Source of the DNA: Selaginella tamariscina
Taxonomy: Eukaryota; Streptophyta; Lycopodiopsida; Selaginellales; Selaginellaceae
Direction: 5' to 3'
Assembly: GCA_003024785.1 (NCBI GenBank)
Contig: PUQB01000854.1
Coordinates: forward strand, 1 to 64,000
DNA: 64,000 nucleotides
Below the pieces are notes generated by a model that saw only the letters and a program-made list of their open reading frames with translations, did no database searches and was not told the origin of the DNA. Below are positions 2,051 to 49,423 of this stretch, one piece after another. The number at the start of each line of letters is the position of its first letter. Position 1 is the first letter of the stretch. Position numbers and translations under genes: made by a program.

Positions 2051-2170
2051 GAGTCCCAACAAAAAGAGGGCTTCCGGGCTTGGACCCGGAATATTCTAAA
2101 GAATCTACCAGAATATTCTTAGAATATTCCTAAATATTCTTAGAATTAGGATTTTGGCTCAGTCGGCAGT
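2051..2170. repeat. Left end and subterminal repeats of the Mutator-like element
   Basis: Starts GAGTCCCAACAAAAAG. Between 2088 and 2150 there are several GAATATTC-type dyads (near 2088, 2110, 2121 and 2132), then an AGTCGGCA motif at 2161. The same two motif types occur at the other end. Clustered subterminal motifs are usual transposase binding sites in Mutator, hAT and CACTA elements; the role here is inferred. No gene lies between 2051 and 2322. Confidence 0.7.
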
Positions 2171-2321
2171 TAACAACAAAAAATATTTAAATCATAGCTA
2201 TGTTTATACTGTATTATTAAAGTTTTATTTCAACACCAAAGAGTACAATTCAACACTTGTCATTTCTTCTTACGATTGAGCAATGCTGCAATTCGTGAAC
2301 CACCAGTCCTACTTGACATCG

Positions 2322-5300
2322 CTATTGCTTGGGTTGGGATTTCCTCTGGCTGATGTTCTCTTTAATCCTGTTCATAGCAATTCTCTTGAGCTCAAGGTTC
2401 TTCTCAGTCCCAACAATGTTTCTCCCCAGCTCGATAGCTGCAAGCATTGAGGACCCCGTACCACTGCCTATATCCCAGATAAGATCACCTAGCCGGGTGA
2501 GTCGTTCTATCACGAGCTGCATCAATCGAGTGCTCTTCGGTTGGTAGTCCATCCTGCATGTGAAGATAATGGTAAATACTTAAATTGTTGAAATGAAATG
2601 CCTACCATGGTTCTTGGAACCGCTCAGGATTATCAACAAGAATTGTTGATGACAAATGCAGCGGATTATCGCGCAATCCTCTAGATGCATCTTGGAAGAC
2701 AAGGAGCAGGATGCTCTCCTGTTAAAACATCAAAAATCATTAATGAACTTCATGAATAAAGAAAAAAGTACCTTCATCTTGTTGCGGTAGCCCCAACCAC
2801 GCCCTCTGTAGATGTAGTACGTTGCAGCAAGTTGAAGGTCCACCACACTTGCAGCTCGGACAACTTGATCCCAGGTGTTTGCTGCAGCAAACACAACCAA
2901 CCAACCATTTGCATCCATATGCATACATGCAAACTGGAGTGCTTCATTGAACTTCACTGGATCAAGGTGTATTTGGCGTATCACTCGTTGTATTTCCTGG
3001 CAAGGTCCCATTTGGAAGGTCGAAGATCACCAAGTTGAAACCATATTCTCCCGCAATATGCTGGTAGCGAGTCTGGCTGTCAGCTGTATGGTACCTGGCC
3101 ACCTGTGTCTGAACTTTTCTATAAGGAACCAGTCTAGGCAGGAACCTCCTCTTCCTTCTCATCCGTGAGCACGGCCTGTTGCATCTCCTCGATGTCATCA
3201 ATCGCCAAGAAATTATCACCTCGAGTTGTAGCAAGTGAAGGGACGAATGTGACCAAGTCATCCTTGATGTCCATGGTTCCCTGCGATGGTAGCACTTCAG
3301 ATAAATTGAATAAGGCAGCTGGTCGCGAGTAGTGGAGGTGCCAGCTACTGTATCTGAGTCTTCTTTGACTGCTGCACAGGCTGACGCCGCTTTGCCTTGG
3401 CCTTTGTCTTCTTAATGAAGTCGACCTCTGCCGGATCCCATGAGATGCATGGGAGATCTTTTGAGTGTTCATTGTAGAGATCCTTCTCCCATGTTGGTGG
3501 TTGCCCAGGTGGATAATCAAGCCAGAACGGTACGTTTACACGTTCGAACTCTGTCAGGCCAGATCTTGTCTTCGACCACATGTGTGGTGCTTCCATGTAA
3601 TCTGACCAGAATACCATAGTCTGTGTGTGAGGCACCTTTCTCGCTGCGACATACCTGTAATGAACATATAGTAGTGTCAGAATGTAACATGTCAAGAAGA
3701 TCATCCTTACCTCCAAATCATCCTTCTTGCTGTCTCTTCGTGTTCGAGGAACTCTTTCGGCTCTATGGAGTAAGTGAACTTCACACACTCATGGAATGGC
3801 TGGAACATCACGTTCTTGCATTTTACCCGCACTTCATCGTACCAAGTCGTGAAATCTGTAACCGGCCTGGTCCACTCGCCATCCTCGATGAGTCCCGTGA
3901 GAATCTGGACTGCCTCCTCTCTGATCGCTCGCCAATACAAATCGATAATAAACCACCTTATCCACTCCTTATCCTGAACACCCGGCAATCCAAGTGTCTC
4001 TTGCTCTCTCTTCAGATCGAGACGTACCAGTTTATTGAAGTACATGATTCTCGTCTCGTTTGGAATTCTCGCCCTTGAAAGCGCGTACAGCTTTTCCAAC
4101 CCCATCCATCTGCATTGTTTCCATGTGATTTGGGTCACCTTGTCGAACCACTCTTCACCCAATGCAGGATCGATGATGGCTAAGATCTTCATCATGCGCT
4201 TGTCATGCTTAATGTAGACCTGTTGTTGCTCCTGGTATTTGTTGCCTTTGGATGCCCTTGCAGCCTTCTCAAGATCATCCTCAATCTCACTCTGTAATTC
4301 ACAGACGTAATCAACTAAGTAATATAAGTGTGAGACGTGGTACCTCAAAAAAAATCTTTGCACAGATCAAATTCGGAAGTGGATGCCAAGCTTGTTGTCC
4401 AGTTGCGCTTTCCTTCCACTTTCTTATGTCATCTCGTTCCTTGTCACTGAGCCTGGCCAAGATCTTCGCTGTGCCCTCCTCACTGGTGCAACATGTCTTC
4501 ACAGATAGCAGAAGATGTGGCAGTGTGGTTTGCACTGCCGTTGCGGAGGAACTGCATATTTGAAAATCTCGAAGTTAGTTAATCCTATGATCTAGAGGTC
4601 ACTATGTTTACCTATTAATTTGCTGAAACATTGTCACAAGCTGAAGATTATCCATGACCCCAGCACGGATGAAGCCTGAACGCACTCTCACTGCCCACTG
4701 ATTCTTATCTTCCGTGTCTTCTATGTACAGCTTCTGAAGCACCTTTAGCCTGTGATTACCATCCCAACAGATGAACTTCTTCATCGAAAGCATTGGTGCC
4801 CATTGCCGGAACATGTCAGACTGAAGCTCCTCCTCAAAAGCCAAATGCTGAGCATACATCGCTTCATCGCTTCTCAATGCTGCCAGATCTGCATCTGTCA
4901 TGGGGTCCCCAACTTGAAGGATGAACTGAGTGGTGTTGCGCAAATAACCAACTGCCTTCTTGAAACTCCTAGTCAAAGATTCCAGATCCGCTGGATTGAC
5001 TCTCCGCACCTGTTCATTTCCCAGAATTCGGCAAATAGGGACATCCGGTGCCTCTCCATATTCTCGGATTGTGATCTTCGCGAGAAGACGCACTGCACTC
5101 TCCGAATGCATGCTGGCTGCAATGTTGTAAACTTCCTCATTATCTGGCACTTCTGCTTTACCCTTCTTCTTCTTCTTAGCAGCCTCTGAATCTCCAGCAG
5201 CTTTGCGTCGTCTCTTCTTGTTCTTGGGTTCATCCTCTTCGTCACTCGACAAAGTCACTGCGCATGAGGCTTGTGTGCCTTCTGTCTGCTCCTGTGTCTC

Positions 5301-5570
5301 CTGTGGTAAGACATCATCCTCAACTTCTTCAACAAAGTCTGATTGTTCTTGTTGGGGTTGAACTACATCCTCTTGCTCTCCTGACCAGTCCTGCTGGCTT
5401 GCCTGTTCAACTGGAGCATCACTTGAAGGTCCTTGTTCCTGAACCACAGCCAGCTTCCTACTTCCTCTCCCACGACCCCGACGCCCTCTCTGAATTGCAG
5501 CTCTAGCTTCTGCTTCTCTCTCAGTAGGCTCCTTCATCTTCTTTTCTTGTAAACGTTGTGAAGAGCGCAT
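2322..5570 (-). pseudogene. ParB-like domain / beta-class DNA methyltransferase fusion gene, frame-slipped
   Basis: Multi-exon gene carried by the Mutator-like element. Clear exons: 5570-4612, 4551-4344, 4291-3711 and 3654 onward, with GT-AG introns of 52-60 nt; the last exons start near 2715 and 2551. The N-terminal part is acidic and Gln-rich with a basic nuclear-localisation-like run ('KNKKRRRKAAG'). A ParB-N-like segment follows ('RILGNEQVRRVNPADLESL' to 'CWDGNHRLKVLQKL', the GNHR resembling the ParB GxxR motif), then a helical middle. The C-terminal half has the beta-class order: motif IV first ('LVIFDLPN', near 3030), then motifs X/I ('DLIWDIGSGTGSSMLAAIEL', near 2430-2490). Three one-base frame slips (about 3355, 3157 and 3024) interrupt the methyltransferase half. 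ParB-methylase fusions are familiar from bacterial phages, which suggests acquisition. The expected DPPY is DLPN here, so catalysis is doubtful. Confidence 0.75.
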
Positions 5571-5649
5571 CTACAAAAGCAATAAGGTTTAACAAAAAAC
5601 TGTAATAAATGTTCAAAGATGTTTAAAAAAAAAAAAAACATACTAGCCC

Positions 5650-5972
5650 TCACAGTCGGCGTGCCGACTGAGAGAGCAGTTGCTGTAAGTCCCAGTCGGC
5701 ATGCCGACTGGGCCTGGCATCAAAGGGAGTCCCAGTCGGCATGCCGACTGGGACTGGCAACAAAGGGAGGCCCAGTCTGGGACTGGGAACGAAGCGAGGC
5801 CCAGTCAAAATGCTAGGTGGGACTAGAACAGTCAACCCTAGTCAAAATGCTGACTGGGGCTGGAACAGTCAACCCGGTCAAAATGTTGACTGGATCTGGA
5901 ACAGTCCACCCCAGTCGGCCTGCCGACTGGGACGGACAACGAAGTCAGTCCGAGTCGGCAGGCCGACTCGGA
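5650..5972. repeat. Array of nine palindromes (AGTCGGC...GCCGACT)
   Basis: Nine dyads at about 5653-5670, 5691-5712, 5731-5752, 5771-5787, 5799-5821, 5836-5859, 5872-5894, 5910-5931 and 5950-5971. Units 2 and 3 are perfect 22-bp palindromes around the core AGTCGGCATGCCGACT; unit 8 differs only in the centre and unit 9 has CGAGTCGGC arms. Units 4 to 7 have drifted, with AAAATG at the centre of three. Spacing is near 40 bp. The array lies upstream of both divergent genes of the element. A role as operator, as a parS-like site for the ParB-domain protein, or as an internal transposase site is inferred. Confidence 0.9.
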
Positions 5973-6137
5973 TTTCTTGCAACTGTGAAGAGATGTAAAA
6001 AGATGAACAGATCATGAGCAGATCATGAAGAAATCAGAAAATACTCACCCCCTCAATGGAAGCCTATTGTGATTAATCCCTGGAGCCACACTTGCTCCAC
6101 GCTATGCCCCCAAATGAGCCCCTGCTCCACGAAAACC

Positions 6138-6193
6138 TAGCCGCCCTAGCTGCCCTAGCCGCCCTAATTGCAAAACCCTAGCCGCCCTAAATC
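6138..6193. repeat. GCCGCCCTA short tandem repeat in the transposase leader
   Basis: Repeats of CTAGCCGCCCTA type stand out from the AT-rich flanks, upstream of the transposase start at 6454. No coding sense was found. The rest of 5973-6453 is non-coding leader/promoter DNA. Confidence 0.6.
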
Positions 6194-6453
6194 AATTAAA
6201 AACCAACCTAATTTCTGTAAACATATTGCATGCATGATCGCCACTTGTACATAGTAAAACTTTTTAATTTACAAAAAACCTACCCAGACGCAGTAAATTA
6301 ATTTCACTCTTCTACCCAGACGCACGCAATTAATATTATTTTTAATATTTGTCAATGAAATGATTGCCTCACGACTAACAAACACATTAACCATCGTGTG
6401 TAATATGTTCATTGTCTTTGAATTTTAACTTTTGTTTGTTCCATTTTTGCTAC

Positions 6454-9400
6454 ATGGCAAGAATCAGCTACAATGGTGTTGACAAGGACTTCCCTGCAGA
6501 TGAAGATGGTATTGCATTTGTCTTTGAAACAGATCTCAGGTCTGCATTTGACATTCCACCTTGGCAATCTTTTAAAGTGCTGCATTTGATGTCTGTTGTT
6601 GGTGGAGATGCTGCGAATGTTGAGGTAGAACCAGAAGGGGCAAGAGCTAGCAGTTTTGTGTATTACACACTTCTTCCTTCCAAAGGACCACTATTCCGGT
6701 TGGAGACAACAGATCGGGACAATTCTATGGTAACAATACTTCGCAATAGTCAGAGATGTAGGATTGGGAAGCAACTGGTGGTCTCGTCATCGATTCAGCA
6801 AGTTGCTGAGGTCCCAGAAGATTGCAACGGAAATGTGATTTACGAGTTGCCAGCACACGAAACAATGAAGGACAAGTACAAAGGGATGAATAGGAAGGAT
6901 GGGTGTGATTACTGGACTCAACGCTGCACAACACATTGGAATGTTCCAGCTCGTGTTAGTCGCAGTTCATGTATTGGCCACATGAAATGCGTAAAGGAAA
7001 CATGTCCGTTCATCAGCTTAAGTAAGAAAGCAAATGACTGCCAATTTAAGGGCACCATTGATAAAGTCCAGTTATCTTCAGATGGTAGAGTGCTTGGAAT
7101 GAAGTGTGTGCATTGCAACAATGAGCCCCTTCTAGTGCAGACATGCTCCGTTGTTGCATATTACATAATTCCAGATGATATCACATGCACGAGGCTTTTC
7201 ATCCATCTTGGAGAACATCAACATCCACGTAGACCACCCGAATCCATGGTCTCTAAAGACAGAGCTAAGGAGACAATCAACAAAGCAGTCGCTGCAACCC
7301 CAAGAACTAATCAACGTGTCATAGAGTTTCAAGCAGCACGCAATATAATTTTGGAAAAACTGGTAACAGATTCTGGAGATGTATCATACGACAAGGTTCT
7401 GTCAGATCTACTACCACTCACAAATCACCGCCGGTAAGCAAAAAAATTATTATTTCCTTTTGGAGATGCTTAACCTTTCCACTGTAGAACAAGAGAATGG
7501 ATATCTCAGGCTAGAACAAGAGACACTCGTTTCAAAGAAGGTTACGAAGGACTTCTGCAGTTAAAGAAGAAGCTATCAATCCCATTCATACATGTTATCC
7601 ACATACCCGGAATGGACCTCAACGGAGCTGAAGAGCAGCCTTTAATCTTCAAAATGACGGTTGCCGGCCCAGGATCCGGAATAGACTACATTAGAAGGTG
7701 TCAATCTGGAGGTGATCTCGAACAGCAGTGGGTGGTGCTAGACCACACATATCGTATTGATGATTGGTGTACACTGGGAATACATCTCTATGATCCATTG
7801 TAAGTATTAACATATCTATGTTTTAAAATACTTACTAATATAATGCACTTATGTTTGTGTAGTTTAAGGTCGATGGTGACACTTGCTTATGGTGACATGA
7901 TCAGGGAGGATAGTGTGGCGGTGATCAAATTTTTGAACACTATGCTTCAAGTGTGCAGCAAGCAAGGACTTCATAATGTGAACTTTGCGGGGTTCATGTC
8001 AGATGAGTCAGGTGCAATTTGGTTAGCATTGCGTCAAGTTTTCAACAATGGGTCAAAGATGAAGGAAGAGAAAGGAGTTGTTTGTTCCATTACATGCAGT
8101 CAGTGCGTCAAGTTACAAAGAAGTGGATACTTGAGGAACACAGGGAGGAGCACATGAACCTTGCACGCTCATGGCCTGCAGCACTAACCAACCAAGATAA
8201 GTTGGAACGACGAGTAATGTTGGAGTCATTTTGGGAAGGCAGGTCCAGTAACGTTAGCGCTTTGCAAACATGGCTGTCATGGTGGGCAAGACATGAAGAT
8301 CATATTTCCATGACAGAGATAATTGACTTGACAGAAGATGGTGTTGCGAATGTGCCTACCACTAACAACTCCGAAGTTGTTCATGCAAGAGCACGAAGAG
8401 CAAGGCTGACGAAGCGTGTTCCTTTGTTGGAGGCAACAATGTTAGATTTAACAGATGCTTTTCCAAAGTGCAAAGGTCAAGGCATCATTTGAAGGGAGAT
8501 ATTCAGGCACAGGTCCTTCCATGGAAACTCTTCTGAAACGTGCACAGAGAAACTTTCAGCGGGAAAATCAGTGTCTCCAACAACTTTTGCAAATCTTGTT
8601 AGTGATGAAGAGCATCTTGCAAGTCCAGAGTTTGCCTCTACAACAAATGTTCGTGTTCGAACCGTTCGTCAACCGTCAACTGGGGACCATGGGATTGATG
8701 CGCTTCGTACACATAGACATGACACACAATATGCAGAACAAGTCATCCCAAATGCACGCAGGAAAAAACTCAAGTTTCAAGATGTCAATGTCACTGAAAG
8801 AGAGACGTTGATGACTCAGTGGGCCATCAGACGCATTGGGGAGGCAAGTCAGGTGAAATGTCTAGGTCTCACTCAGGACGGTAACAGCAAGTGTGGCAGA
8901 CCCATAGGATATCCACATCGTGTACCGGCACCAGGATTTCACGGTAGACGGCAATATACAAATGCATTTGGGAACATTGAGTTCACTCATCAGATGTTAT
9001 GGTTCTGCCCACGCGATTCTTGTTGCTTCAGACGACCATATGCAGGGATTCCTCCTGAGAGTATTCCAGAAGTTCCAGAGGTTTGGCCAGTTCAAAAAGG
9101 AACAAACTTGAATGCAAATGAGGTTGAAGCTCTTCTGAAAGCAGGATTCAAGTTGGAGGGATTTGAAGAAATGGTAGACGACAGTAGTAGCCGAATGGAT
9201 CGAACACCATCACCACCAAGAGGAGAGGGAGCACATAGAGTACCAACATACCATGGACGGAGTGTGCGAACACCAACAAGAATGTCCAAGGAACATGAGA
9301 AACATTACAACCAGGCAAAGATTCTTCAAGGTCGGATCAACAACGTGGAGGTGGTTCAAAGAGGGAAGACTGAGGCCTTCATTGTCTCTGCAGGCATGCA

Positions 9401-9641
9401 ATCTGCTAAGGTAACAATTTCTATTCTGTCATGCACTTGTGCAACTTTTCAGAAAGCCAAGAACTGGAGCCCCTGCCAACACATGTATTTTGTGTACACT
9501 CATGTTCTTGGATTGGACCCAACGACTTACTTCTTACAGAGGCGGACCCTTACTCCAGCAAAGTGCATCGGTTATTGGTTGATTGCAAGCGCAATGTCGA
9601 ACCTGCGACCTTTTAAGTCCAGTCGGTATAGTAAAGTCTAG
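6454..9641 (+). pseudogene. Mutator-type transposase with SWIM zinc finger, two lesions
   Basis: Three exons, 6454-7433, 7488-7799 and 7863-9641, joined by GT-AG introns of 54 and 63 nt; about 1,023 codons if one missing base is counted. The start ATG at 6454 is preferred over an in-frame ATG at 6412 because the product then begins directly with conserved-looking sequence. The N-terminal part holds a Cys/His-rich region ending 'HLGEHQHPRR', like the WRKY/GCM-type fingers of Mutator transposases. Catalytic-core cues are 'WVVLDHTYRID' and 'FMSDESGAIW' followed by 'CLFHYMQSV'. A second Cys cluster lies at about 8858-9030 and a SWIM finger (CTC...CQH) at 9436-9483. Lesions: one base lost in a T run near 8040 and one in-frame TGA at 8490-8492. 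It would cut and join the element ends in the nucleus. Confidence 0.85.
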
Positions 9642-9812
9642 TCGGCAAATAATTAGCGTTTTTCACTTGTTGGTCGGCATTTTATATTGAAAGTTAAAGA
9701 TAATCTACTTGGCAGAATATTCTAGAATATTCCCGTTTATTTGACAGAATATTCCTGGATATTCGGGAATATGCGAAAAGCCCGTTGTACGAAGCGGTTT
9801 TTGCTAATCCTC
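9612..9812. repeat. Right end and subterminal repeats of the Mutator-like element
   Basis: AGTCGGT/AGTCGGCA/GGTCGGCA motifs at about 9620, 9640 and 9672 echo the internal palindromes. A dense GAATATTC cluster follows (9714-9770). The end reads TTTTTGCTAATCCTC, whose complement shares GAG and CAAAAA with the left end. Confidence 0.75.
9714..9770. promoter_or_regulatory. Perfect heat-shock-element-like array
   Basis: GAATATTCTAGAATATTC at 9715-9732 is four contiguous, alternating nGAAn units, the consensus bound by heat shock factors. A second run at 9746-9770 keeps four of five units. Heat-driven plant transposons such as ONSEN carry such elements. It lies at the 3' side of the transposase gene, so it may instead be a transposase-binding repeat that happens to fit the pattern. 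Confidence 0.45.
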
Positions 9813-9821
9813 GCTAACTCG
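9813..9821. repeat. Target-site duplication, right copy (9 bp)
   Basis: GCTAACTCG, identical to 2042-2050, directly after the element end ATCCTC. Nine bases is the usual length for Mutator-like elements. Confidence 0.93.
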
Positions 9822-10555
9822 GTTAGCCAGCACCTGCTCTCGAACAAAATGTACCTTAATTTCAAAATGTTTTGTACGTCCATGAAACCTTGGATTTTTG
9901 GACAGTTCGATAGCGCTCTTATTAGATTCTCACGGGTTGTTGAGCAGGGACTCCGACTTCTCTGAGAAAATTTGCAATCCACTTGGACTCCTTTGTAGCA
10001 CCTGTAGTTGCTATATATTCAGCTTTCGTTGATGAAAGAGCCATAGTAGCTTGACGTTTACTTCCCCAGCTTACGAGTGCTCCTTCAAGGAAAAACAGGA
10101 AACCTGAAGTGGACTTCCGAGAATCCTTGTCTCCTGCCCAATCCGAATCAGTATAGCCATCCAGTTGTAGCTGATTTGAGCTCTCAATTAACGCTGCTTT
10201 GGAGCTCCCACTGAGCTCCAACTCTCCTAAGGAACATCCCCAATACCTGAGACAGTACGAAGCCGTACCTTTTAAATAACGAAGAATTCTCTTTACAGTG
10301 TTCCAGTGAATCACGCCTGGGTTTTCCAAGAACCTGGAGACGGCCCCCACAGCAAAGCTGATATCAGGTCTCGTACTAATGGCTAGATATAGCAAACACC
10401 CGACAGCCTGTTGAAATGGAACTCTGCTCATTAGTGCTCTCTCCTCCTCTGATGTCAGGCTTTGCTCATTAGACAAAGTCTGTCCAAGTTCCATAGGTGT
10501 TGCAGTTGGTCGAGCTTCATCCATGCTAAACCTCTGGAGAATCTCGTCAACGTAA
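9822..10555 (-). mobile_element. Second copia fossil, RT end and RNase H
   Basis: Minus-strand copia coding region continuing the fossil at 1771-2050 across the Mutator-like insertion. Readable stretches include 'STRPDISFAVGAVSRF', 'RILRYLKGT', 'DSDWAGDKDSRKSTSGF' and 'SSTKAEYIA'. It is broken and lacks its 5' two thirds. At about 10555 it meets an inverted copy of its own 3' part. Confidence 0.85.
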
Positions 10556-10918
10556 TGAGAGCGCTATCGAACTGTCCAAGAATCCAAGGTTTCATGGACG
10601 TACAAAACATTTTGAAATTAAGTTACATTTTGTTCGAGAGCAGGTGCTGGCTAACCAAGTTAGCTTGCAGTATATTTCAACGCAGCAGATGACAGCGGAT
10701 GTGATGACCAAGTCGTTAGCTCGAGACAAGTTTGTAGGTCATCGTGAAGCTATGGGAGTTCTGTACTCTCACGGCTGAGTGGGAGTGTTGGGAGCCAGCC
10801 TAGAGTCAAGGACAGGTGGCAAAGGATGTGTACGCACGGTGACGATATATGTGCACTAAGCGTTACGGTGATGATACATGTGCACTGAGCGTTACAGTGA
10901 TGATACATGTGCACTGTT
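10556..10918 (+). mobile_element. Inverted copy of the copia 3' end with partial LTR
   Basis: Plus-strand copia RNase H end ('SKNPRFHGRTKHFE', 'TADVMTKSLARDK') followed by an LTR start (TGTTGGGAGCC at 10786) with the same tandem units as at 1778-1870. It forms a head-to-head arrangement with 9822-10555, sharing about 90 bp inverted. It also holds the uninterrupted version of the site where the Mutator-like element sits (10643-10673). The LTR ends abruptly near 10918. Confidence 0.8.
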
Positions 10919-12376
10919 CCGGATGTGTTTACTTGTAAGAATTTATTGGAGTGGGCTGACTAACTAATTAATTATCGTATGTTTTACTCCACATAAGAAT
11001 CGTGTATAGATTTGAACAGGACAATTACGTGAACAAAATATTGCTTATTAACAAAGGCAGGATTTGTTATTTGTCTCAATGAGTTTTCATTAATGTTTGA
11101 TTTTTAATGATATGATTTTTAAATCTATTTGAGTGAAGTATATAATTCTTTGTATTTAATATTTATATATATATAAATTATATACAATAAATCTTATTAG
11201 CAAAGCCCACTTCTTGATTACGAAACTGAAACTATGAATTATATTTTAATTCATAATATGGCATTTTATTTATTTTTTAGATTAACAAGTTTTATTAATT
11301 ATAAAATTATAAATTATAAATTATAAATTTTGTCCTTCATTTTTTAAATTGGTCATGAAGCACAATTAATTAATTTATTTAACAACATCGACTCATGAAC
11401 CTCCAAATTCATTAGACACGAGTTAATAACACACAACGCATTTAACCTCGTAATTAATTCAAAAAATACAGTGTCAAAATACATCTATGAACGATACACA
11501 CAATATACCGGTGGTCCTCTCCTGTATTTAGGCTAAATAAACATCCAAAATCTACATGCATCTCCCAAAACATGTATAAATTTTATGTATTATTCCATAA
11601 ACAGCATCTTTGTGTCGACTTCAACTGTAGAAAAGGCAATGACATTAAATCGGCATCTGCCTGGCCCTACAAGTTGCATGTAGTACAAGACGGTAGTAAT
11701 GCAAGTTGTATGGTTCCCACAACATAGCAAATCAATTTATTCTGGTGTTTACGTGTTGGGATTGTTGCGCATTATGATATACATGTGACAACTCATACAA
11801 TGTAGGCCTCGAATCAGCGAAGTAAAGTGATGCACTTTAAAGGGGGGTTTCCAGGTAAAATAACAATTGTAGATACTGATTGCAAGGAAGGAGTCCTGAA
11901 ACTTGTGAATGATAGTGTGAGTGTAATTTTGCTAGTGCATGTATATATCTCCCGTATCCCATCCCTATCTACTTGTAAACCAAGGTAATGTGTTAAATGA
12001 TATGTGACACACATTTATAGACTCATAGAGGTGGTACCTGTGATTAATTCATCGGCCTACACTATATACACATATATATTTACATTACACGAGATCTAAC
12101 ATAGAAACATGGTTTTTTCTTGTTTTTCTTTTTATAAAAAACAAAAAAGATTCTAAGCCCCAGATTCCTTTTTGGCGGGACTCCTGAATATTCTAAGCCG
12201 CTCCTTTTCGGTGGGACCTCATCCTGCCTCGTAAGTCAGTGAGAGATCCCTCAAGTTGGGACGACATTGGACCACTCTGAATGGCACTGCTCTGCAACAA
12301 ATATATGAATGTACATTAACAAAGTTGTTGGTATTTACACTGTTTATGGGTATTTACACTCCGCTTTGCTATTTGT
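10919..12376. other. AT-rich non-coding DNA downstream of Lnt-like copy A
   Basis: No gene seen. The stretch 10925-11160 is a direct repeat of 14345-14580 (both from ACTTGTAA to the TTTATATATATA run) and recurs inverted at 15262-15480. From about 11220 on the DNA is the left arm of the inverted repeat and mirrors 17492-18850. Confidence 0.7.
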
Positions 12377-14210
12377 TCAAGCCAATAATGAGTACATGGC
12401 ACTTGACTCCACACCTAAGTCCTCGTAGCTGACTTCTCCAGTAAAATAAAGCACCGACGTGCTGGAACTGTTTCTTAGAACTGTCTTTACAATGTGAAGA
12501 GGAAGACAAGCAAGTGATAAGTGAACCATTGCAACTACGAGGAAAAGCCATGTGAAAATGTATCCGTATCTTGGATAAAAGCTCCACGCTCTCTTTGATA
12601 CTGGGAGTTGCATTAGAAACACTGAATCTGATATACCTTCCCTGTAAAACACCACATTTTACGTACATATAAAATTTGCTTTCTTCCACCCACGCATACC
12701 TGTAATCAAATACTTGATTGTATGGGTTGATAATGGCACTGATGCCTCCAGTTGAGCATCTAAACCAAGTAAAACCATTCTCTATTGCCCTCAACGACTC
12801 ACCTTCATATAAACGTGGCCCAGTAGCTCCCCATGTCTCAGCAGGTTGCAACATGAGATCTACCCTGTGTATTAAGTTATATATCACAAAACGCGAACTG
12901 TTTGTATTATTTCTTCACCTTTTCTGTCCAGCTTGACGAATGTAGTCTGGAAAATCGAAATCGAAGCAAATGGAACCTCCAATTCTTCCCAGCTCGGTAT
13001 CAACAAATGGCATCTCCAGCTTTCCTGCGGTTACATCGTCCTCGACGAATCTAACTGGATGAGATTTCTTGTAACTAAAACCTATGGATCCATTGGGTAA
13101 AACAAGATCAAACATGTTGTAACTCAGGTTGGTTTCAACGTCAAAGTAAGTATAAGTCACACCGAGAACAGCTTTGTGATCAGCAACTTGACGAGCTTTA
13201 CTTAACAGACTCTCTTTAGCTTCTCTGCCATGAACATAAACGGATGTTTCAGACCACAACACAAGCTTGTCTCCAGCGTGAACTCTCTCCCTCGTCCTAT
13301 TCATGAGAGTCTCACTGTCCCCGTCCACAAGCTCCTTACCAAGTATACATGAGACCGGCACCGTGGGAGCCATGGTGTCCTTTAGCTCTCTCTGGTAGAA
13401 ACTCCCAGAAAACAAAGTAACTCTTGCACTTCCATATAACAGGCATATCAAGAAAACGCCCCCAAAGGCTCTTTCTTGAACCTTGAGCATCTGCTTCGAA
13501 GCAGGGTGCTTATATACAACCTTCTCGTGTAGAAGAGCTGAGAACCATGCCATCAGGAAAGTGATACCGTCGACTCCCCATATGCTGGAGCTCATCACAA
13601 GTGGTTGTACGTGGAACTGTGTGCCACCTGGAGAAAGGATTGTTCCCATGCCACCATGTTTGTTCCAGAAATGCCATACGCCAGTCCATAGTGAAGCGAA
13701 CACGAAGGGATTGGAGAGTGTTGCAAGAGGAAACCTCTTTCTGTATATGATACTCACCAGGAAAGGGATTGATAGGCATACCCAGAGAAGCAGGCTCCAG
13801 ATAAACCCCACAAACAGAGTGTTGCTGTTTTGCTGTTGTGTTCCTGGGAAGAAAGGGCGAAATGCAAGACTTGTTACACTTGCTTGTGCGATGATTGCTA
13901 CAAGGATTACACCCAGAGAAGAGTACCAGTTCTGCTTGAATAATTGCGATTTGTGTAGAAACTGTAGAAGGAAGAACGGCTGAAGCCATGAACAAATCTC
14001 GACATTATGAAACCCAGTAAAGAATGTGCAAATCAAAGAGAGAACAAACAGGAGAGGTGTAGACGGAGAAACTGCTCTCATCCTCTCTCTTCTTGAGCTG
14101 GGTATGTGTCTTACAACATTCACAGGAATCTTCAATTAATATATAATGTATATAAACAATACATTATCTTTGGATGATACACGTTCAATTGGTTCAAATA
14201 TAATTTAAAA
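11220..14210 (+). repeat. Left arm of a ~3-kb inverted repeat
   Basis: Mirrors 15690-18850 in reverse complement, including the three-exon Lnt-like gene, its 3' flank (for example ACATGTATAAATTTTATGTA at about 11571 against its complement near 18307) and about 75 bp upstream of the gene. Arms are very similar by eye but differ by indels; limits are approximate. Confidence 0.8.
12377..14135 (-). CDS. Apolipoprotein N-acyltransferase (Lnt)-like CN-hydrolase, copy A
   Basis: Three exons, 14135-12919, 12864-12700 and 12641-12377, with GT-AG introns of 54 and 58 nt; 548 codons plus stop, fully open. An alternative start at 14081 (MRAVSPS) matches the start of copy B. The N-terminal 230 or so residues are hydrophobic with several membrane spans, as in bacterial Lnt. 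The nitrilase-fold half shows the likely triad: Glu in 'LVLWSETSV', Lys in 'YKKSHPVRF', Cys in 'GGSICFDFDFPDYIRQ', then 'LQPAETWGATGP'. A C-terminal span ('FTWLFLVVAMVHLSLACLPL') follows. Bacterial Lnt adds the third acyl chain to lipoproteins using phospholipid; the plant substrate is unknown to me. The likely origin is horizontal transfer, given the bacterial family. Copy B is its inverted, broken duplicate. Confidence 0.85.
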
Positions 14211-15689: not shown

Positions 15690-15792
15690 TAAATCTAAAC
15701 CAATTGAACGTGTATCATCCAAAGATTATATATTAATTGAAGATTCCTATGTATGTCGTATGTAAGACACATACCGAGCTCAGGAAGAGAGG

Positions 15793-17491
15793 ATGAGAGC
15801 AGTTTCTCCAGCTCCTCTCCTGTTTCTCTTCTCTTTGATTTGCACATTCTTTACTGGGTTTCATAATGTCGAGATTTGTTCATGGCTTCAGCCGTTCTTC
15901 CTTCTACAGTTTCTACACAAATCGCAATTATTCAAGAAGAACTGGTACTCTTCTCTGGGTCTACTCCTTGTAGCAATCATCGCACAAGCAAATGTAACAA
16001 GCCTTGCATTTCGCCCTTTCTTCCCAGGAACACAAACAGCAAAACAGCAACACTCTGTTTGTGGGGTTTATTTGGAGCCTGCTTCTCTGGGTATGCCTAT
16101 CAATCCCTTTCCTGGTGAGTATCATATACAGAAAGAGGTTTCCTCTTGCAACACTCTCCAATCCCTTCGTGTTCGCTTCACTATGGACTGGCGTATGGCA
16201 TTTCTGGAACGAACATGGTGGCTTGGGAGCAATCCTTTCTCCAGGTGCCACACAGTTCCAGATACAACCACTTAAGATGAGCTCCAGCATATGGGGAGTC
16301 GACGGTATCACTTTCCTGATGGCATGGTTCTCAGCTCTTCTACACGAGAAGGCTGTATATAAGCACCCTGCTTCGAAGCAGATGCTCAAGGTTCAAGAAA
16401 GAGCCTTTGGAGGTGTTTTCTTGATATGCCTGTTATATGGAAGTGCAAGAGTTACTTTGTTTTCGGGGAGTTTCTACCAGAGAGAGCTAAAGGACACCAT
16501 GGCTCCCACGGTGCCAGTCTCATGTATACTTGGTAATGAGCTGCTTGTGTACGAGGACAGTGAGACTCTCTTGAACAGGACGAGGGAGAGAGTTCACGCT
16601 GGAGACAAGCTTGTGTTGTGGTCTGAAGCATCGGTTTATGTTCATGGCAGGGAAGCTAAAGAGAGTCTGTTAGCTGAAGCTAGCAAAGTTGCTGACCACA
16701 AAGCTATTCTTGGTGTGACTTATAGTTACTTTGAGGTTGAAACCAACTTGAGCTACAACATGTTTGACCTTGTTTTACCCAATGGATCCATAGGTTTTAG
16801 TTACAAGAAATCTCATCCAGTTAAATTCGTCGAGGACGATGTAACTCCAGGAAAGTTGGAAATGCCATTTGTTGATACCGAGCTGGAAGAATTGGAGGTT
16901 CCGTTTGCTTTGATTTCGATTTTCCAGACTACATACGTCAAGCTGGCCAGAAAAGGTGAAACAAAGTACAAACAGTTTGCATTTTGTGATATATTTATAT
17001 ACAGGGTAGATCTCATGTTGCAACCTGCTGCGACATGGGGAGCTACTGGGCCACGTTTATATGAAGGTGAGTCGTTTAGGGGAATAGAGAATGGTTTTAC
17101 TTGGTTTAGATGCTCCGCTGGAGGTATCAGTGCCATTATCAACCCATACAATCAAATATTTGATTACAGGTATGCGTGGGTGGAAGAAAGCATATTTATA
17201 TGTACGTAAAATGTGGTGTTTTACAGGGAAGGTATATCAGATTCAGTGTTTCTAATGCAACTCCCAGTATCAAAGAGAGCGTGGAGCTTTTATCCAAGAT
17301 ACGGATACATTTTCACATGGCTTTTCCTCGTAGTTGCAATGGTTCACTTATCACTTGCTTGTCTTCCTCTTCACATTGTAAAGACAGTTCTAAGAAACAG
17401 TTCCAGCACGTCGGTGCTTTATTTTACTGGAGAAGTCAGCTACGAGGACTTAAGTGTAGACTCAAGTGCCATGTACTCATTATTGGCTTGA
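15793..17491 (+). pseudogene. Lnt-like CN-hydrolase, copy B with two frameshifts
   Basis: Same three-exon structure as copy A: 15793-16954, 17005-17169 and 17227-17491, all splice sites kept and exons 2 and 3 identical in length to copy A. Compared with copy A it has one extra A in the run near 16035 and lacks one G near 16885. The two changes cancel, so the region between is shifted relative to the start and the last part returns to frame. The shifted region contains the Glu and Lys of the triad, and the second change sits just before the Cys motif. Little other decay is visible, so the lesions look recent or could be sequence errors. Confidence 0.8.
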
Positions 17492-18510
17492 ACAAATAGC
17501 AAAAGCGGAGTGTAAATACCCATAAACAGTGTAAATACAAACAACTTTGTTAATGTACATTCATTTATTTGATGCAGAGCAATGCCATTCAGAATGGTCC
17601 AATGTCGTCCCAACTTGAGGGGTCTCTCACTGACTTGCGAGGCAGGATGAGGTCATCCCACCGTAAAGGAGGGTTGGCTTAGAATATTCAAGAGTCCCGC
17701 CAAAAGAGGAATCTGGGGCTTAGAATTTTTTTTTGTTTCTATATTAGATCTCATGTAAATATATATGTATATATAGGACTTAATCATAGTTACCACCTCT
17801 AGACAAAGGATGAGTCGATAAATGTATGTCACATGTCATTTAACACATTACCTTGGTTTACAAGTGGATAGGGATGGGATATGGGAGATATACACATGCA
17901 TTAACAAAATTATACTCACACTATCATTCACAGGTTCTTCCTTCCTTCCTTGCAAACAGTATCTACAGTTGTTATTTTACCTGGAAAACCCTTTAAAGTG
18001 CATCACTTTACTTCTTTGGCTGATTCGAGGAGCCTACGTTCTCATACTGTTATGGGTTGTCTCGTGTATATCATCAGAAATGTCGGGTGGAAGTTATTTC
18101 AGTAGGCCAGAAGCTATAAATTCCAACACGTAGTACAAATCCCAATGCGCAACAATCCGGACACGTAAACGTTGTGGGAACCATACAACTTGCATTACTA
18201 CCGTCTTGTATTACATGCAACTTGTAAGGCCAGGCAGATGCCGACTTAATGTCATTGCCTTTTCTACAGTTGAAGTCGACACAAGGATCTGTTTTTGGAA
18301 TAATACATAAAATTTATACATGTTTTGGGAGATGCATATAGATTTTGGATGTTTATTTAGCCTAAATAGAGAGGGAGACCACTGGTATATTGTGCATGTG
18401 CATGTGTATCATTCGAAAGATGTATTTTGACATTGTATTTTCTTAATATTTATGAGGCTGGATGCCTTTTGTGTTATCAATTTGTGTGCAATGATTACGA
18501 GTTCACGACT

Positions 18511-21280: not shown

Positions 21281-24074
21281 CATTGTAAGAATTTGTAAGA
21301 ATACTTACTTGATATTTGAATAACCTTTCCTTGCCTTTCTTCTTTTGTGAAATTGTAAGAATTTGCAGTTGTAACAACTCTTATTTTACAATCTGTTGTA
21401 CATGTTGTCCAATCGGGCCTTATACCTCAAATCCCCTTGAGTTTGACGAAGATTCTCATTGTGCTTCATGTGCACTTTAACTTTTGGCAGTTGAATCTTG
21501 TTGATTGAAAAGAGATGTTCTAGACAATTGTGGCACTTAACTAGGATCATTGTGTTCCCTAATGAATGGTACTTTTGATAAATGTCATTCTCAAACTCCC
21601 TAACTGGTTCCTTACTTTGTAGTTTCAAGTACCAAGAGCAATGGATTAATTCTTTCAAGGAGTGGCCTCGAAGCCTTGAGGATACATTCTGTAACTATTG
21701 TGTTTTGAGAAGAGCTTCCTCGCAATATCCCTTTCAATATCCACAAAGTATTGGGCCAGTTGACATGTGTTTACATTGTCATATCTACAAGTAGCTTGAA
21801 TTTAGTCATAAATATTTATAATTATACACGACAACAAACTTGTAAACACATATATGTGTGAAGTATGGCTGGCTAGGTTATTTGTTGAATGGTAAGGACT
21901 CAAAACTTTTCTACTTTCTCATCTATTCTTCCAGTACATAAGAATATAAAGTGATGCTTTGTGAATCTTCGTAGGTGAGCTTGTCCTGAACAGTCCATTT
22001 CCAGATAATCTTCTCTCATTTTTTTATCAACTTTTTCTCATTGTCAAACAACTAGTCTTTTAGTTTTTTAAGTGCAAGAGCCTTCTGTTCATGAGTAAGT
22101 TTGCCTTTGACGATGTTGTAGATAACCTCCTCACTTTGTCCCCTCTTGTCCATCCCTACAGAAGCATATTAACCATGACTACCTTATGATAGGAATAACT
22201 TACTTATGCAGATCAAAGCCAAGGATGTGTCCCATTTGGGTGCATGACATGGATCTAGTTCCACCCTCTTGTTACGAATGTTTACCTTTTCACATTTAAT
22301 TTTGGTTGTGAAGATGAAATAATTAAGTATATGTGATTTAATAATGTGATTTACCTTGACCTAGATGCCCAATAATGGGTATATTTCTTTAATGTCTTGC
22401 ATAGTTATGCTTCCCAAGTGTCTTATTTGCTCCACATTGTGTAAGAGGGTTCCACTTAGAAAGCCAATTGGGTCAACCTAACAAAAACCATAATGTGATA
22501 AAGCTTGAATACTTACTGATTTATCTTTACATAAACCATATGTAGCTTCTTGGATTCTCTCTAAGTACAAACCTTGACAATCACTATCGAAACCCAGATG
22601 TGTGCGTGTGGATTGTGTCTCAAGTGGTCCTCAATGACTTTTATAATCACAGTACAATGATGATTACCGTCTGCAACATGGAAAACTTTTTAACCATAAA
22701 TTTCTAATCTTCGTCGAAATGTCGTGATTTCTTACCCAGATGTATTTTGTAACTGTCATTCCTATCTTGAATGGACATACTAGAAACATGTTGGTTTCAC
22801 CCAACCAAGGTACATTTGAGAATTCAAAATTATGATCAACCTTGCAAAATTTGTAACTCGTGGTCTGCATAGAGGGATGTACTTCACCATCTGCGACTTA
22901 GTGTATCTCATATCTTCTAGGAGCTTGTTGATAGTTTGGTCTTTGGCTTGTAACAATGTCCTCCTAACCATGTCCTCGACCTGTCCATCCATCTTGATCA
23001 CTTGCATTTATACAAAGTGCCTTCGCCAATTGAATTTGTCTACTGGCTATCCCATTGCTAGTTCATGTTGCTAGTAGGTTCCTCTGGAGTGGGAAAGAGC
23101 CTTCACCAGTTTGGTTTATGATAGTTGTCACTTGCTTATCAGTGTTGCTGGTAGCTTCCTTTGGAGTTGGTGAATAATGGTTGGGTTGCACTTCTTCAAA
23201 ATGCATAGGGAAAAGCATGGGTATCAAGGGCAAAATCGTTTTCAAGAGGGTGTAATTGAAAACAAAAGCATAGGCAAATCAATGAATGTTTAATCTAGTA
23301 TAGTCACATGATCTCCCTTGTTTGTATGTTGACCTTCATCTTTTGATAGATCCACCACTTCACTTTTGTGTATTTGTCGGTCATGTGTTATCTTTGTTGA
23401 TTTGGGTTGTGGGGTGTTCTTTCTTTTGCCTACAAAACCGAGTCAAACAAGCTTATTATTCATATCTTTACCCTAAAGTGTACAACTAAGTGAATCATTG
23501 AAACCTCCTTTCTTTGTCTTTTTTTGTGGTGCATTTCCTCGTATTAACCTATAAAAGCACAGTTAGAAACTTCAATGTAATACACAACAACAAGAACACC
23601 GAATTCTATTATTAATAATATTGTTGGGGTTTGTTGGTGAACCTCGTCAATAAAACAATAATAGAATGACATACTCATAACTTATAGATTTAAAATACCA
23701 CATCACACCAATAATTAAATGCAAATTCATTATTATAACTGTAAAATTGTGGGGTTCATTGGCAAACCCCACAATAACAAAAATCAAGAAGACCCTCGAA
23801 TATGAATACATCAATAAAAAAACATGAATTCCTCAAAAATGGAAAAAGTTAATCATTAGAAAACTCCATTATAATGGCAAATAAGCAAAACAATGAATTA
23901 AACCTCAGGGTTTGCTAGCAAACTCCATAAAATATTATTTTTAATAACTGCAAATACCAATATGGTCGTGGAGTTTCAACAAGCCATATATGGTGGCTTC
24001 CTAAACTTGTGTGGCATTTGCCTTTTGAAACCACTTTAGATAAGGTTTTTAGAGTGGCACTAATCTTTGTCGAC
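21281..24074. other. Unrecognised DNA with short minus-strand coding-like pieces
   Basis: Minus-strand open stretches at 21386-21658, 22664-22870, 22780-23007 and 23063-23245 overlap or adjoin in different frames and read like decayed protein ('GQVEDMVRRTLLQAKDQTIN', 'NKLLEDMRYTKSQMVKY'). I cannot assign a family. Past 23300 nothing is seen up to the hAT end at 24075. Confidence 0.4.
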
Positions 24075-27000
24075 CAGGGCTTTTTTAAAATAACATTTTT
24101 GGCATCTTGAATGAAGTTTGACTATATATGATTTAATGCTAATTGAGCCTAAGTTTATCTAAGTATTTGAAAACGGCATATTCCGAGGTCTGTACATCGG
24201 AAAAAATAATTCTTCGAATATTCTAAACCTTGATGAACGAGAAGAACACCTGAGTTTTAATTGAAATCTTCGACCAACGCAGTGGTATAACTTGAGTGGT
24301 AATCTACTGGCCTATTTTTCTCCTCTACATATTCTACTTTTCATTCTATAATCTCTACTCTTTCTCTATGTCAGGAGTAGCAGGGTGCGGACACGGGGGG
24401 AGCGAGCATGGTCATGGAGTTGCCACGATTGTTTGTGGGTGTGGCAGTCGTGGTTGTGGAGTTGCGATGGATCGTGGTAGTGGTAGTGGTAGTGGTGTGC
24501 CGTGGTCGTGGCCGTGGCCGTGGCCGTGGTCGTGGCTGTGGAGTTGCGGTAGATCGTGGGTGCCACCGTGGAGTTGTAGATCGTGGGCGGGGGCGTGGCC
24601 ATTTGAGCTTGGCTCCAGGGTTTTCAGCCACAGAGGTACTAGAAGTAGAAGAAGTAGTAGTGGAGGATGTAGTGGTCCCATCCGACCAGCCAGGAGCAAC
24701 TGAAGAGCAGCCTACTAGGAGCAATCGGCAAGATCAATCGCCTAGGTCAAGGAGTCACTGTCCAACTAGTAGCAGTAGTCTTGAGCCGCCAACTGAAACA
24801 ACAGGAGAAGAGCAGCAAAGTCGAGGTCGACCACGTGATTCAATCTGGAAATTTCTCTATTGCTGTCCAGAAGGACTTCTACGCACTGGGCAGATTTATA
24901 CAGATCCTCAAGTCTATGCAGGGAATTCGGATTTGTGGGAGAAAATAGTGCGGTGTTCTATATGTTCTGGCATTATCAACTTCAAGTACGCAAAACCAAA
25001 GGGTATCAAGGAGCACATTTTGGGATTCACCACAGATCCACTTGATCGTTGTCGTGGGGATTGGTCAAAACGATATAAGGCAATCCAGCAGTCAGAACCA
25101 AAGGAGTTTGCATGTAGGGTACTCTTCGCTTTCAGAAATTTGTTGAATCTCTTGAGCAGTATCGAAACAATCGTCATGCGGGAATGTCTTTGCTAAGGCA
25201 GCCAAGCAGGTTCAGGACTGAATCAGCATCCTCCTCAGGTTCTCACCATGCTACTTCGGCCTCCACACATGGTTCCAAGCCCCGTTGTGTGGACATCCCT
25301 GACACTAATGATTTCGAAGCGTGGGAGTGGATTAATCACCTCGAGGATCCAAGAGCAAAAGCCGCTGCACAAAAACTATTTCAAGTGAAACGGGAATATG
25401 AGTTGTCGCATTATGGTCTAAGTTCTATAGCAGTATTTCAGCCTGGGAGCTTGGAACTAGCAGATGGGAGGGAACTGGAGATCCTTGCAAGAGATGTATC
25501 ATCACCACCAGCTCGTCCAATGCCAACTGCAAGAAACAACAGTTACAATACTCATGCTCTGTATGCTTACTCCCCCGAGGAACTAAAGGAGTGGCATAAG
25601 AAATATGCAATGCATGTGTATTGCACTGCCATGCCATTTACTCAAGCTCTATTTGAGACTGCTCATGCAGCCTCTATGTATCCTTTGCCAACAATGGATG
25701 CCTTACGTGGAGAACTGCTGGATGAAATCGCAGAGGAGCATAGGCAGATCGTGGATAGAAAACTTCAAGCGGCTGCAAACTCTCATCATCCTCGACCGCT
25801 TTGTCTCGTCACTGACGGTTGGAAAACGGTTAATAGATCGCACTTGGGGAACATTATGATTGTTGATGCCACTCACCATGAGGAGTTCTTCTATGGGTCA
25901 TTTGAATGCCCAGAATCTTCAGGTATTCTATTTTGTGATCTATATGAATCATTCCTAACTTTTGATTATGTGTACGCAGCTCATAAAATCTTTGACAAGT
26001 TGTATGCTGTGGTGCAAACCGTGCAAGCCCGTGTAACCAGTAGAGTACTCATGCCAGAGGGTGGTGACACATTTGAGCAAGATGCCTCATTAGAGGAACA
26101 ACAGAGACGTGAACAATATTTGCGAATTCGAAGAAAACGTGCTATTGTTGCTGTCATTATGGATAACGCAAGCAACATGAAGGCAGTTGGGCGAAAGATG
26201 GAGGAGACTTTTGTGGACATATGGAGCGTACCGTGCCAGTGTCACGCACTCAATTTAGTTCTGAATTCCTGGGTGAAACAAAAGTTCATCAAGCGGTATA
26301 TTGACCAAGGGAAGACAATAGTTCAATTGGTTCGTAACACGGGTAATGTTCTGGAATTTTATCGAAAACATAAGGTGCTGCGAAATGGGAGGGAACTTAT
26401 CAAACCAGTAACTACAAGGTGGGTGGTTATTTCAACTTACTTCGATTTTTAGCACTAATTTTGTTTTTTTTTTTTTTTTTTTTTTTTTTTCAGATTTGGA
26501 ACTTATTATTACATGTTGAAGCGAATGCTGGATGAGAAGGGCACTTTGCTAGATGTTTTTAGTTCTCCAGAGTTTGCTAATTGGCTACGCAAACAACCTC
26601 AAGATGCAAAAGTTGGCGCAAAGAAAGCTATAGAGAACCTTGATAATGTTGAGTTCTGGCAAGGAGTGGATAGGGTATTGCAGCTGATGTGCCCAGTTGT
26701 GAAGGCTATCAAGTTCTTTGATAGGTCTGCACCAACGATGGGATTTGTGTGGCAGGCTTGGAAGTATATAAAGGTGATGACAGCAGGAGTTTTTGGTTTT
26801 AGTTCACAAGAGAAGCAGGTGCTTCTAGCTTTGCTAAGGCAACGTCAACAAAAATACCTAAACACATGCGACTTGTTTGGGGCAGCTTGGTGTCTAAATC
26901 CTAGATACAGGGACTCATGGAGAGGAGATCTAGATGCCAACCGGGCATTGAGTCAAGCAATGCAACGTTTTTATCCAAACAGCTCGGATGCATTCCAATG

Positions 27001-28339
27001 TAACCAGGAATATTTCGTGTTCAAGGAAGCAGATGGCCCCTTTAGTTGCACAGGCAGTGTAGCGAGGTTCTTTGATCCACCCAACATCGTAGAAGATGCT
27101 CCATATAAGCTTTGGGCTTCATATTCAATACTCGATTGTGAACTACCACTACTATGGAGGTTTGCTTGCTCTATACTTGGCTTAACCGTTTCAAATTCTG
27201 CAGCAGAAAGAAACTTCAGCTCATACGGCAATGTGTTGACCATTAAACGGAACAAGTAAGTTTACTTTTTGGAATTTTTTTTAGTTTATTCACGGCATAG
27301 AGTCTTGACTATAGCAAACTGCAGCCTAACTCTCGAACGGACGACGAATTTAGTAAACATTTACCAAAATCACCGTCTATGGAGCAAGGCACACAGTCGT
27401 AGGCATGCAAAGTCAGGGGCATTGGGAATGTGGACAGGAGCTGAATTTGACATCACCCAGCCAACAAGTTCAAGTTCAAGCCATAGAAGTATTGATACTA
27501 CTACAAGTGATGAAGCACCAGCAACAATAGGAAGGTCGTATGCAGATGTTGATGCAGACGACTCATTAGACGAAGACGAGGGTGACAATAACCATGAGGC
27601 ACAATTAATGTGAGTATTGTATTTTCAACATTGCTTGTGCATTTGATGCATTTGCATTTCAGGTCCTATGATGAAGATGAGGACCCGGACAAGCATCCAG
27701 ACGTTGAGAGGGCATTAAAAAATTTAGACCCGAGCTCCGCAGCCTTTACCCCACCAATGGCACCACAAGAAGCACCTACAGCTAGTGAGTCTATGTTTTT
27801 AGATGTGTCGGTGTCTCCAGTGCCTGTCCCGTTCACATTCCATTCAGAAGGTGGCCCAGAACTTGCTCTCCAACCCCGCAATATCTTTGGGTCATGTGCT
27901 ATGGGCCAGCAGCTTGAACAAGTTCAACCAAGTGCACGAACAAGTGAGATCCAAGAGGAAAGAAATGATATTAATATAGACGTAGACATTGGTTTAGTGA
28001 CCCAGCGACGGCCCAAGAAAAGGACGAGGAGAGTTTGTGAATTAGCGAGTCTGCCTGATTTAGGCAGTGGCAAAGCACCACTAGGAGATCCTCACGTTCT
28101 TGATTTAGATGTTCAAGAAGGATCTGGGTGAATAGAAAAGATCTCATGTTTTATTTTAAAAACTGCTTGCATGCACGTGTTCAATAAATACTTTCACATT
28201 TTAAATTCACGAGCTCCGGACCGGATTATTTTCTGACTACTCAAGTTTTAATATAATCATAAAAATTAACTTTTGCTAATATTTAAAAGTGCAACTTTTG
28301 CATTTAAAATGCAGATTTTGCATCTTTAAAAAAGCCCTG
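24075..28339 (+). mobile_element. hAT-type DNA transposon, copy 1
   Basis: 4,265 bp with terminal inverted repeats CAGGGCTTTTTTAAA (24075) and TTTAAAAAAGCCCTG (ending 28339), typical of hAT elements. Inside is one hAT transposase gene. TTTGCA-type subterminal repeats precede the right end. The left flank is TTGTCGAC. The right end is followed by a single C and then copy 2. Confidence 0.92.
24408..28131 (+). pseudogene. hAT transposase (DUF659 type), copy 1
   Basis: A Gly/Arg-rich low-complexity N-terminal region (24480-24620) precedes a BED-like zinc finger ('VRCSICSGIINFKY...GIKEHI', about 24950-25015). The RNase-H-fold core follows: 'LCLVTDGWKTVNRSHLGN' near 25800 and 'AVIMDNASNMKA...PCQCHALNLVLNS' near 26150-26270. 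The hAT dimerisation motif 'NSAAERNFSSYGNV' is at 27196-27237. Introns of GT-AG type lie at 25921-25978, about 26419-26492 (with a long T tract), about 27256-27323 and 27610-27661. An acidic tail follows to the stop at 28129. One G fewer than copy 2 near 25119 breaks the frame between the zinc finger and the core. The start ATG at 24408 is uncertain. Confidence 0.85.
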
Positions 28340-28340
28340 C

Positions 28341-42251: not shown

Positions 42252-49423
<7,172 letters not shown>

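Follow-up and report, generated by a model that had tools for sequence, protein, structure and literature searches.

A young two-gene DNA transposon family of Selaginella tamariscina with a methyltransferase-like accessory gene and a shared motif array

The window analysed here is a 64,000-nucleotide stretch of the lycophyte Selaginella tamariscina (assembly GCA_003024785.1, contig PUQB01000854.1, positions 1 to 64,000 of the forward strand). Near its start lies a 7.76-kb mobile element (2051-9812), bounded by a 9-bp target duplication, in which a transposase gene and an accessory gene with a methyltransferase-like end are transcribed away from each other. The element is one of about 200 young copies of a family in this genome, here called family A, and the same gene pair is found in a second, diverged family, family B. 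The two families have in common a cis motif, TGCCGACTG, which is carried as variable arrays and is new here. A preliminary description of the window had proposed a Mutator-like transposon encoding a SWIM-finger transposase and a fusion of ParB-like and DNA-methyltransferase segments; how its parts fared is given below with the evidence.

Anatomy of the element and its insertion site

The two copies of the target-site duplication, GCTAACTCG, lie at 2042-2050 (10 bp counting the next G) and 9813-9821, and the element ends in short imperfect terminal inverted repeats, GAG......CAAAAA. The flanking DNA at 1790-2051 and 9813-10916 is duplicated head to head, and this duplication is the source of an empty site within the same window: a paralogous copy of part of the flanking DNA, free of the element, lies on the reverse strand at 10553-10916. 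When the flanks of the element are joined they align to this inverted paralogue over 354 bases with no gap, so the element ends are exact to within 1 bp. The empty paralogue is independent proof of both the ends and a single insertion event, and it agrees with the coordinates and exact 9-bp duplications first proposed, which hold. The flanking DNA is copia-like (copia pol) by eye only; a Pfam search of the flanking open frame at 9922-10563 at E 0.001 gave no match.

Both of the divergent, intron-containing genes that had been placed within one mobile element are present. The transposase gene (6454-9616, forward strand) has three exons at 6454-7433, 7488-7799 and 7863-9616, and the accessory gene (2260-5570, reverse strand) has six, at approximately 5570-4612, 4551-4344, 4291-3711, 3654-2772, 2718-2606 and 2553-2260, with splice sites inferred from GT-AG and frame and the last stop read by hand. 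The window copy of each gene has broken frames, around 8061, 8458 and 8547 in the transposase gene and around 2971 and 3136 in the accessory gene. Most of 20 other copies that were fetched do not have these breaks, the one near 3136 being shared in part, with one of its two columns lacking in 8 of 21 rows; a decayed pseudogene family was rejected on this ground. They may be assembly indel errors, since gap bases outnumber mismatches in most pieces of the alignments to the fetched copies; the abundance of gaps suggests assembly noise besides mutation and changes in array length.

The superfamily of the transposase is less certain. A SWIM-like CxC..CxH finger can be seen near its end, as previously described, but falls below the Pfam cut-off of 19.6 bits, with 16.6 bits in the window copy and 14.5-17.7 bits across the proteins scanned. 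The MULE (Mutator-like element) profile PF10551 gave no match at E<=10 to the 1018-residue family A protein or to four family B transposase frames; elsewhere in the genome it has 137 matches, to other MULEs, not all of which were placed relative to element copies. Comparison by hhalign with L410, a genuine MULE from this genome and a clear match to the profile, scored 18.9, with shuffles reaching 20.4, and a further candidate bridge, L411, was left unused, its longest frame being hAT-like by eye. The target duplications of 9 bp in family A and 8 bp in family B lie within the 8-11 bp taken as the mark of Mutator-like elements. Membership of Mutator, as first claimed, thus fits the duplications and is unproven, resting on these and on the sub-threshold finger while the MULE-domain profile is silent. 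There is a real, if doubtful, possibility that the transposase comes from another or unnamed DDE/SWIM superfamily. The silent profile and the lack of support against a MULE of the same genome speak for it, and duplications of 8 or 9 bp are not unique to Mutator. Against it, the residue order LDHTYR...FMSDES...CLFHYMQ...TTNNSE looks by eye like the MULE catalytic layout.

Copies, a second family and constraint

Copies were sought throughout the 300.7-Mb assembly (1391 contigs) with a 1001-base transposase query. The best 40 of 656 candidates were scored, all at 100% after rounding, and are hence no random sample; 20 of the 39 outside the window were fetched. Compared with the window element, these are 92.1-99.1% identical per piece over 300 bases. 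By substitutions alone, the distance of the 21 aligned copies from the family majority is 0.12-1.0%, once 200-column blocks with under 120 aligned or over 12% mismatch are dropped. Both genes are open in the majority sequence, which encodes a transposase of 1018 amino acids in three exons and an accessory protein of 1015 amino acids in six. A single rule was applied to all 21 copies; among the 13 with both ends intact, the target duplication matches at nine of nine bases in seven, at eight in two, at seven in one and at six or fewer in three; two of those with a perfect duplication (L019 and L020) have common flanks and represent one insertion event.

Genome-wide, family A has 211 accessory sites and 204 transposase sites, with none for either reversed-pattern control. 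Among the first 100 accessory sites, 87 are accompanied, at 4.0-6.5 kb on the expected side, by a transposase site in divergent orientation. Reciprocally, an accessory site is found at the expected side and distance for 89 of 96 transposase sites, four of 100 having been omitted as lying beyond the last contig covered by the accessory sites. The preliminary description had staked its pairing of the two genes on their occurring together elsewhere, and they do so both in other copies and in the second family. At one locus (G000:C546:177145-177618) four exact SWIM-coding sites fall within 475 bases, as if the end of the transposase were tandemly repeated.

A W-D-G-N-H-R-L pattern that excluded the family A codon was used to look for relatives beyond family A; it had 356 exact matches, against none for the control. 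Relatives of the accessory protein are encoded at 12 of the 13 distinct matched loci examined. The one complete family B element (L039 with L409, a single full copy) is 8449 bp long, is flanked by an 8-bp duplication, TTACCATT, and has the same gene pair, divergent as in family A. At the protein level it is about half identical to family A, with 45-72% identity per piece in the accessory gene and 50-82% in the transposase. Two further loci, L041 and L042, are decayed relics of a third lineage, C. The exceptional match, L040, encodes no relative of the accessory protein and was set aside. It holds a degraded, distant transposase relative (L040:5624-7621) that aligns in pieces at 24-50%, with E values of 0.025 and 0.10 for the weakest two, and no accessory gene match was found in its 8-kb stretch; it is perhaps an older branch that lacks the accessory gene.

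Between the family A majority and the family B copy, the proportions of nonsynonymous (pN) and synonymous (pS) differences are 0.30 and 0.84 over 969 codons of the accessory gene, 0.26 and 0.79 over 987 codons of the transposase, and 0.28 and 0.85 in the methyltransferase domain, with synonymous sites saturated. Both genes look strongly constrained between the families, and the accessory gene is kept about as strictly as the transposase. This comparison is preferred because polymorphism within family A is noisy: pN/pS for the transposase and accessory genes is 0.80 and 0.84 among singletons, 0.64 and 0.67 among changes in at least two copies, and 0.19 and 0.28 among changes in at least four (10 and 12 changes).

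The accessory protein and the motif arrays

The methyltransferase-like domain is encoded at 2322-3130 on the reverse strand, with an S-adenosylmethionine (SAM) motif WDIGSGTGSS and DLPN at the position of motif IV. The last accessory exon matches PF01555 (N6_N4_Mtase, cut-off 26.7 bits) in the window copy (38 bits, E 2.3e-9) and in family B (38.6 bits), both matches covering the C-terminal, SAM-motif quarter of the model only. In a genome scan with this profile, in which 150 of 739 candidates were scored, all six loci fetched belong to family A or B. An hhalign comparison of a profile built from A, B and C with 24 ParB-methylase fusions from viral contigs aligned 180 columns at a probability of 95% and E 3.3e-8 (87% and 3.9e-6 under one other setting), scoring 58.0 against at most 28.3 in 60 column shuffles. 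This alignment sets DLPN opposite DPPY and keeps the permuted order, with motif IV ahead of SAM motif I. The half containing motif IV is insignificant when aligned separately (16.7, shuffles up to 20.1), and the placement of motif IV is therefore taken from the full-length domain alignment. The best-scoring solved relatives are M.MboIIA and DpnA (E 0.0003; 0.0018 and 0.024 with one sequence). The beta-class, permuted methyltransferase core recognised at the outset is thus borne out by a profile match above cut-off and by a match over the full domain.

The canonical motif IV, [DNS]PP[YFW], is replaced by DLPN in families A and B and in lineage C: in 19 of 21 family A copies (the other two lack it or are unaligned there), in five in-frame family B loci (L039 and L167-L170) and in one lineage C relic (L041). 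Its presence in three lineages makes it a fixed feature and not damage. In this class of enzymes an aromatic residue of motif IV (tyrosine, phenylalanine or tryptophan) normally stacks on the flipped target base, and its loss points to altered or absent catalysis. Of the earlier proposal that the element marks its own DNA, the methyltransferase-like domain stands, while modification as its activity is weakened because the catalytic motif is DLPN. The capture from a prokaryote or phage proposed along with it is conjectural as to both direction and donor.

The ParB-like segment found no such support. Its likeness is limited to one DGNHR motif in the region 4612-5135 (reverse strand). The ParB_N profile PF02195 is unmatched in the whole genome, although 11 of 14 control genomes contain matches to it. 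Scans of the accessory protein against Pfam, PHROG and PDB gave no significant match to a ParB protein, and in hhalign a set of 115 ParB domains of the GHGR type, taken from viral contigs, gave a probability of about 1%. Against DGNHR-type ParB-like proteins the probability was 92-93%, in an alignment of only the motif by which that set had been chosen (iteration recruited 183 of its 185 members). It came down to 67% with a strict set of 35 and to 0.2% once the motif was masked (score 10.9, shuffles up to 16.9 in 80). Homology through the DGNHR-type proteins was rejected as evidence, since nothing is left without the motif. Elsewhere in the protein, no Pfam family reaches its cut-off over the middle 400 residues in the exons scanned, and no viral relative of two accessory exons was confirmed in IMG/VR. 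The best Pfam score on the first accessory exon, to CDC45, was dismissed as low complexity (E 0.0058, 15.4 bits against a cut-off of 34). Phage and prophage fusions of ParB-N with N6/N4 methylases resemble the element's protein in a C-terminal permuted methyltransferase domain that can be aligned over its length; the latter differs in its unconfirmed ParB part, in DLPN, in a long middle without known domains and in its introns.

Between the divergent genes, at 5651-5972, lies an array of TGCCGACTG motifs, several of them paired as CAGTCGGCATGCCGACTG palindromes. Subterminal GAATATTC repeats occupy 2085-2145 on the left, followed by a single CAGTCGGC at 2160-2167, and on the right they occur together with AGTCGGC/GTCGGC sites at 9639-9775. 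The form GCCGACTG occurs 10 times in the family A majority and 18 times in family B, where 200 shuffles gave means of 0.10 and 0.12 and never more than 2; the remaining 56 kb of the window has a single occurrence. Most of these sites in either family cluster between the two genes, and others lie towards the ends near GAATATTC, of which there are three left and three right in A and one left and three right in B. The layout of the array differs: family A has units of about 40 bp with a perfect palindrome, and family B has units of about 136 bp with an inverted pair. The palindrome CAGTCGGCATGCCGACTG has 1135 sites in the genome (control 0), each being reported on both strands. All 50 sites listed, on 8 contigs, lie 0.9-1.3 kb from a listed family A accessory site, with 3 to 10 per array among them, the last array being incompletely covered. 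Across the 20 fetched loci the number of palindromes ranges from 0 to 6. That one motif recurs in repeats which differ and change speaks for selection acting on it, as described for the targets of VANC proteins in Arabidopsis.

A VANDAL/VANC-like reading and its rivals

Arabidopsis VANDAL elements carry VANC anti-silencing proteins (PMC5735166; PMC10398659), whose targets are described in PMC5735166 as a short motif repeated in the non-coding parts, in tandem and variably between copies and relatives. The present element is similar in being a plant DNA transposon with a transposase, an accessory gene and tandem, variable arrays of a short non-coding motif. It differs in that DUF1985 and DUF287, the VANC domains given in PMC5735166, were unmatched by Pfam in the accessory exons scanned, and in the methyltransferase-like end of its accessory protein; an anti-silencing role here would be by analogy.

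Our preferred reading, held tentatively and at slightly less than even confidence, is that of a young, high-copy, two-gene plant DNA transposon of VANDAL/VANC-like design whose accessory protein binds the element's own arrays. The transposase would move the element. The accessory protein, of about 1000 residues and probably DNA-binding, would have as its scaffold a permuted N6/N4 DNA methyltransferase in which the SAM-site motif is retained and the canonical catalytic DPPY is lost, with DLPN in its place. We infer that this protein, or a complex of it with the transposase, recognises the TGCCGACTG motifs on its own element, and that recognition would maintain both the promoter region and the ends in an open or transposition-competent state, in the way VANC proteins act on Arabidopsis VANDAL elements. 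The methyltransferase fold would then serve binding or an altered chemistry, and not the ordinary writing of N6-methyladenine (6mA) or N4-methylcytosine (4mC). A bolder form of this reading, which we consider unlikely, is that a bacterial-type methyltransferase has been turned into an element-specific recognition factor with a DLPN site, for which the TGCCGACTG palindromes would be a portable docking site, and that it shields or de-silences the element and allowed the spread of hundreds of young copies.

Several points weigh against the VANDAL/VANC-like reading. Three of the 13 intact-end copies have no recognisable target duplication. GAATATTC is not rare nearby, with five in the other 56 kb of the window; the right end of family A lacks the full 8-mer of the motif and carries only the shortened AGTCGGC/GTCGGC forms; and the lineage C relics have one GCCGACTG (L041) and none (L042). 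No DNA-binding domain was identified in the accessory protein, the motif may be bound by some other protein, and DLPN might still catalyse. The motif also contains GCCGAC, the core of host DREB/CBF (DRE/CRT) sites.

This shared core, and the position of the array between divergent genes in both A and B, would suit an array acting as a bidirectional promoter to which a host stress factor is recruited, with some unrelated job for the accessory protein. We think this improbable: conservation extends past the core, with TG following GCCGAC at 10 of 14 sites in A and 18 of 24 in B, and motif sites lie near the ends as well as in the promoter region. The sites near the ends, both motif and GAATATTC, in A and B, together with the near one-to-one linkage of the genes, would also be expected of a transposition cofactor that acts with the transposase at subterminal sites and has no silencing role. 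Most copies of the motif are in the intergenic array and not at the ends, and we give this alternative little weight. A similarly low probability attaches to an active DNA methyltransferase whose motif IV is non-canonical and whose 6mA or 4mC would protect the element or label its ends. Such an enzyme would account for the PF01555 matches above cut-off in A and B, the full-domain alignment to viral methyltransferases, the intact SAM-site motif and a domain about as constrained as the transposase, yet in three lineages DLPN stands where [DNS]PP[YFW] would be expected, which removes the aromatic residue that normally stacks on the flipped base.

Methyltransferases have been noted in other eukaryotic mobile elements. 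DIRS1-like retrotransposons carry such a domain, of unknown function according to PMC3266345; in contrast to the present case these are retroelements with a tyrosine recombinase, and the domain is described there as lying inside pol and not in a divergent gene of its own. In dinoflagellates and charophytes, retrotransposons have similarly recruited DNA-methylation enzymes, reported to be C5-cytosine methyltransferases (PMC5890265); these too sit in retroelements and not in a DNA transposon. Bdelloids provide a case of bacterial-type amino-methylation in a eukaryote, 4mC being reported as an epigenetic mark of eukaryotic DNA (PMC8885841), whereas here the gene rides in a transposon and its active-site motif is degenerate. 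No published description of this gene pair was found in the titles and abstract openings of the literature searched, a scope that leaves subscription journals and Repbase outside.

The remainder of the window contains a 4.27-kb direct tandem duplication (24074-28339 and 28340-32567, 98.8% identity) that includes a hAT-like transposase with DUF659 and Dimer_Tnp_hAT matches. Inverted duplicates of one gene, 94% identical, lie at 12139-14147 and 15725-17738; the gene resembles apolipoprotein N-acyltransferase, with CN_hydrolase matched in one copy and LNT_N just under cut-off in the other. A fragment of the thiamine-synthesis gene ThiC is found at 48263-48982 (PF01964, E 2.6e-92), and open frames with leucine-rich repeats (LRR) and NB-ARC at 56931-59528 are likely a disease-resistance gene. 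RING genes are also present, as are short introns beside the NB-ARC and LRR genes.

To our knowledge, few anti-silencing or self-marking factors encoded by transposons are known in plants. The gene pair described here, kept in two families of this genome that have diverged, comes with an element-specific motif array, which makes the identity of the binding protein, DNA modification and escape from silencing each directly testable. If the fold proves to be that of a pseudo-methyltransferase reader, it would add a new mode of self-recognition by mobile elements.

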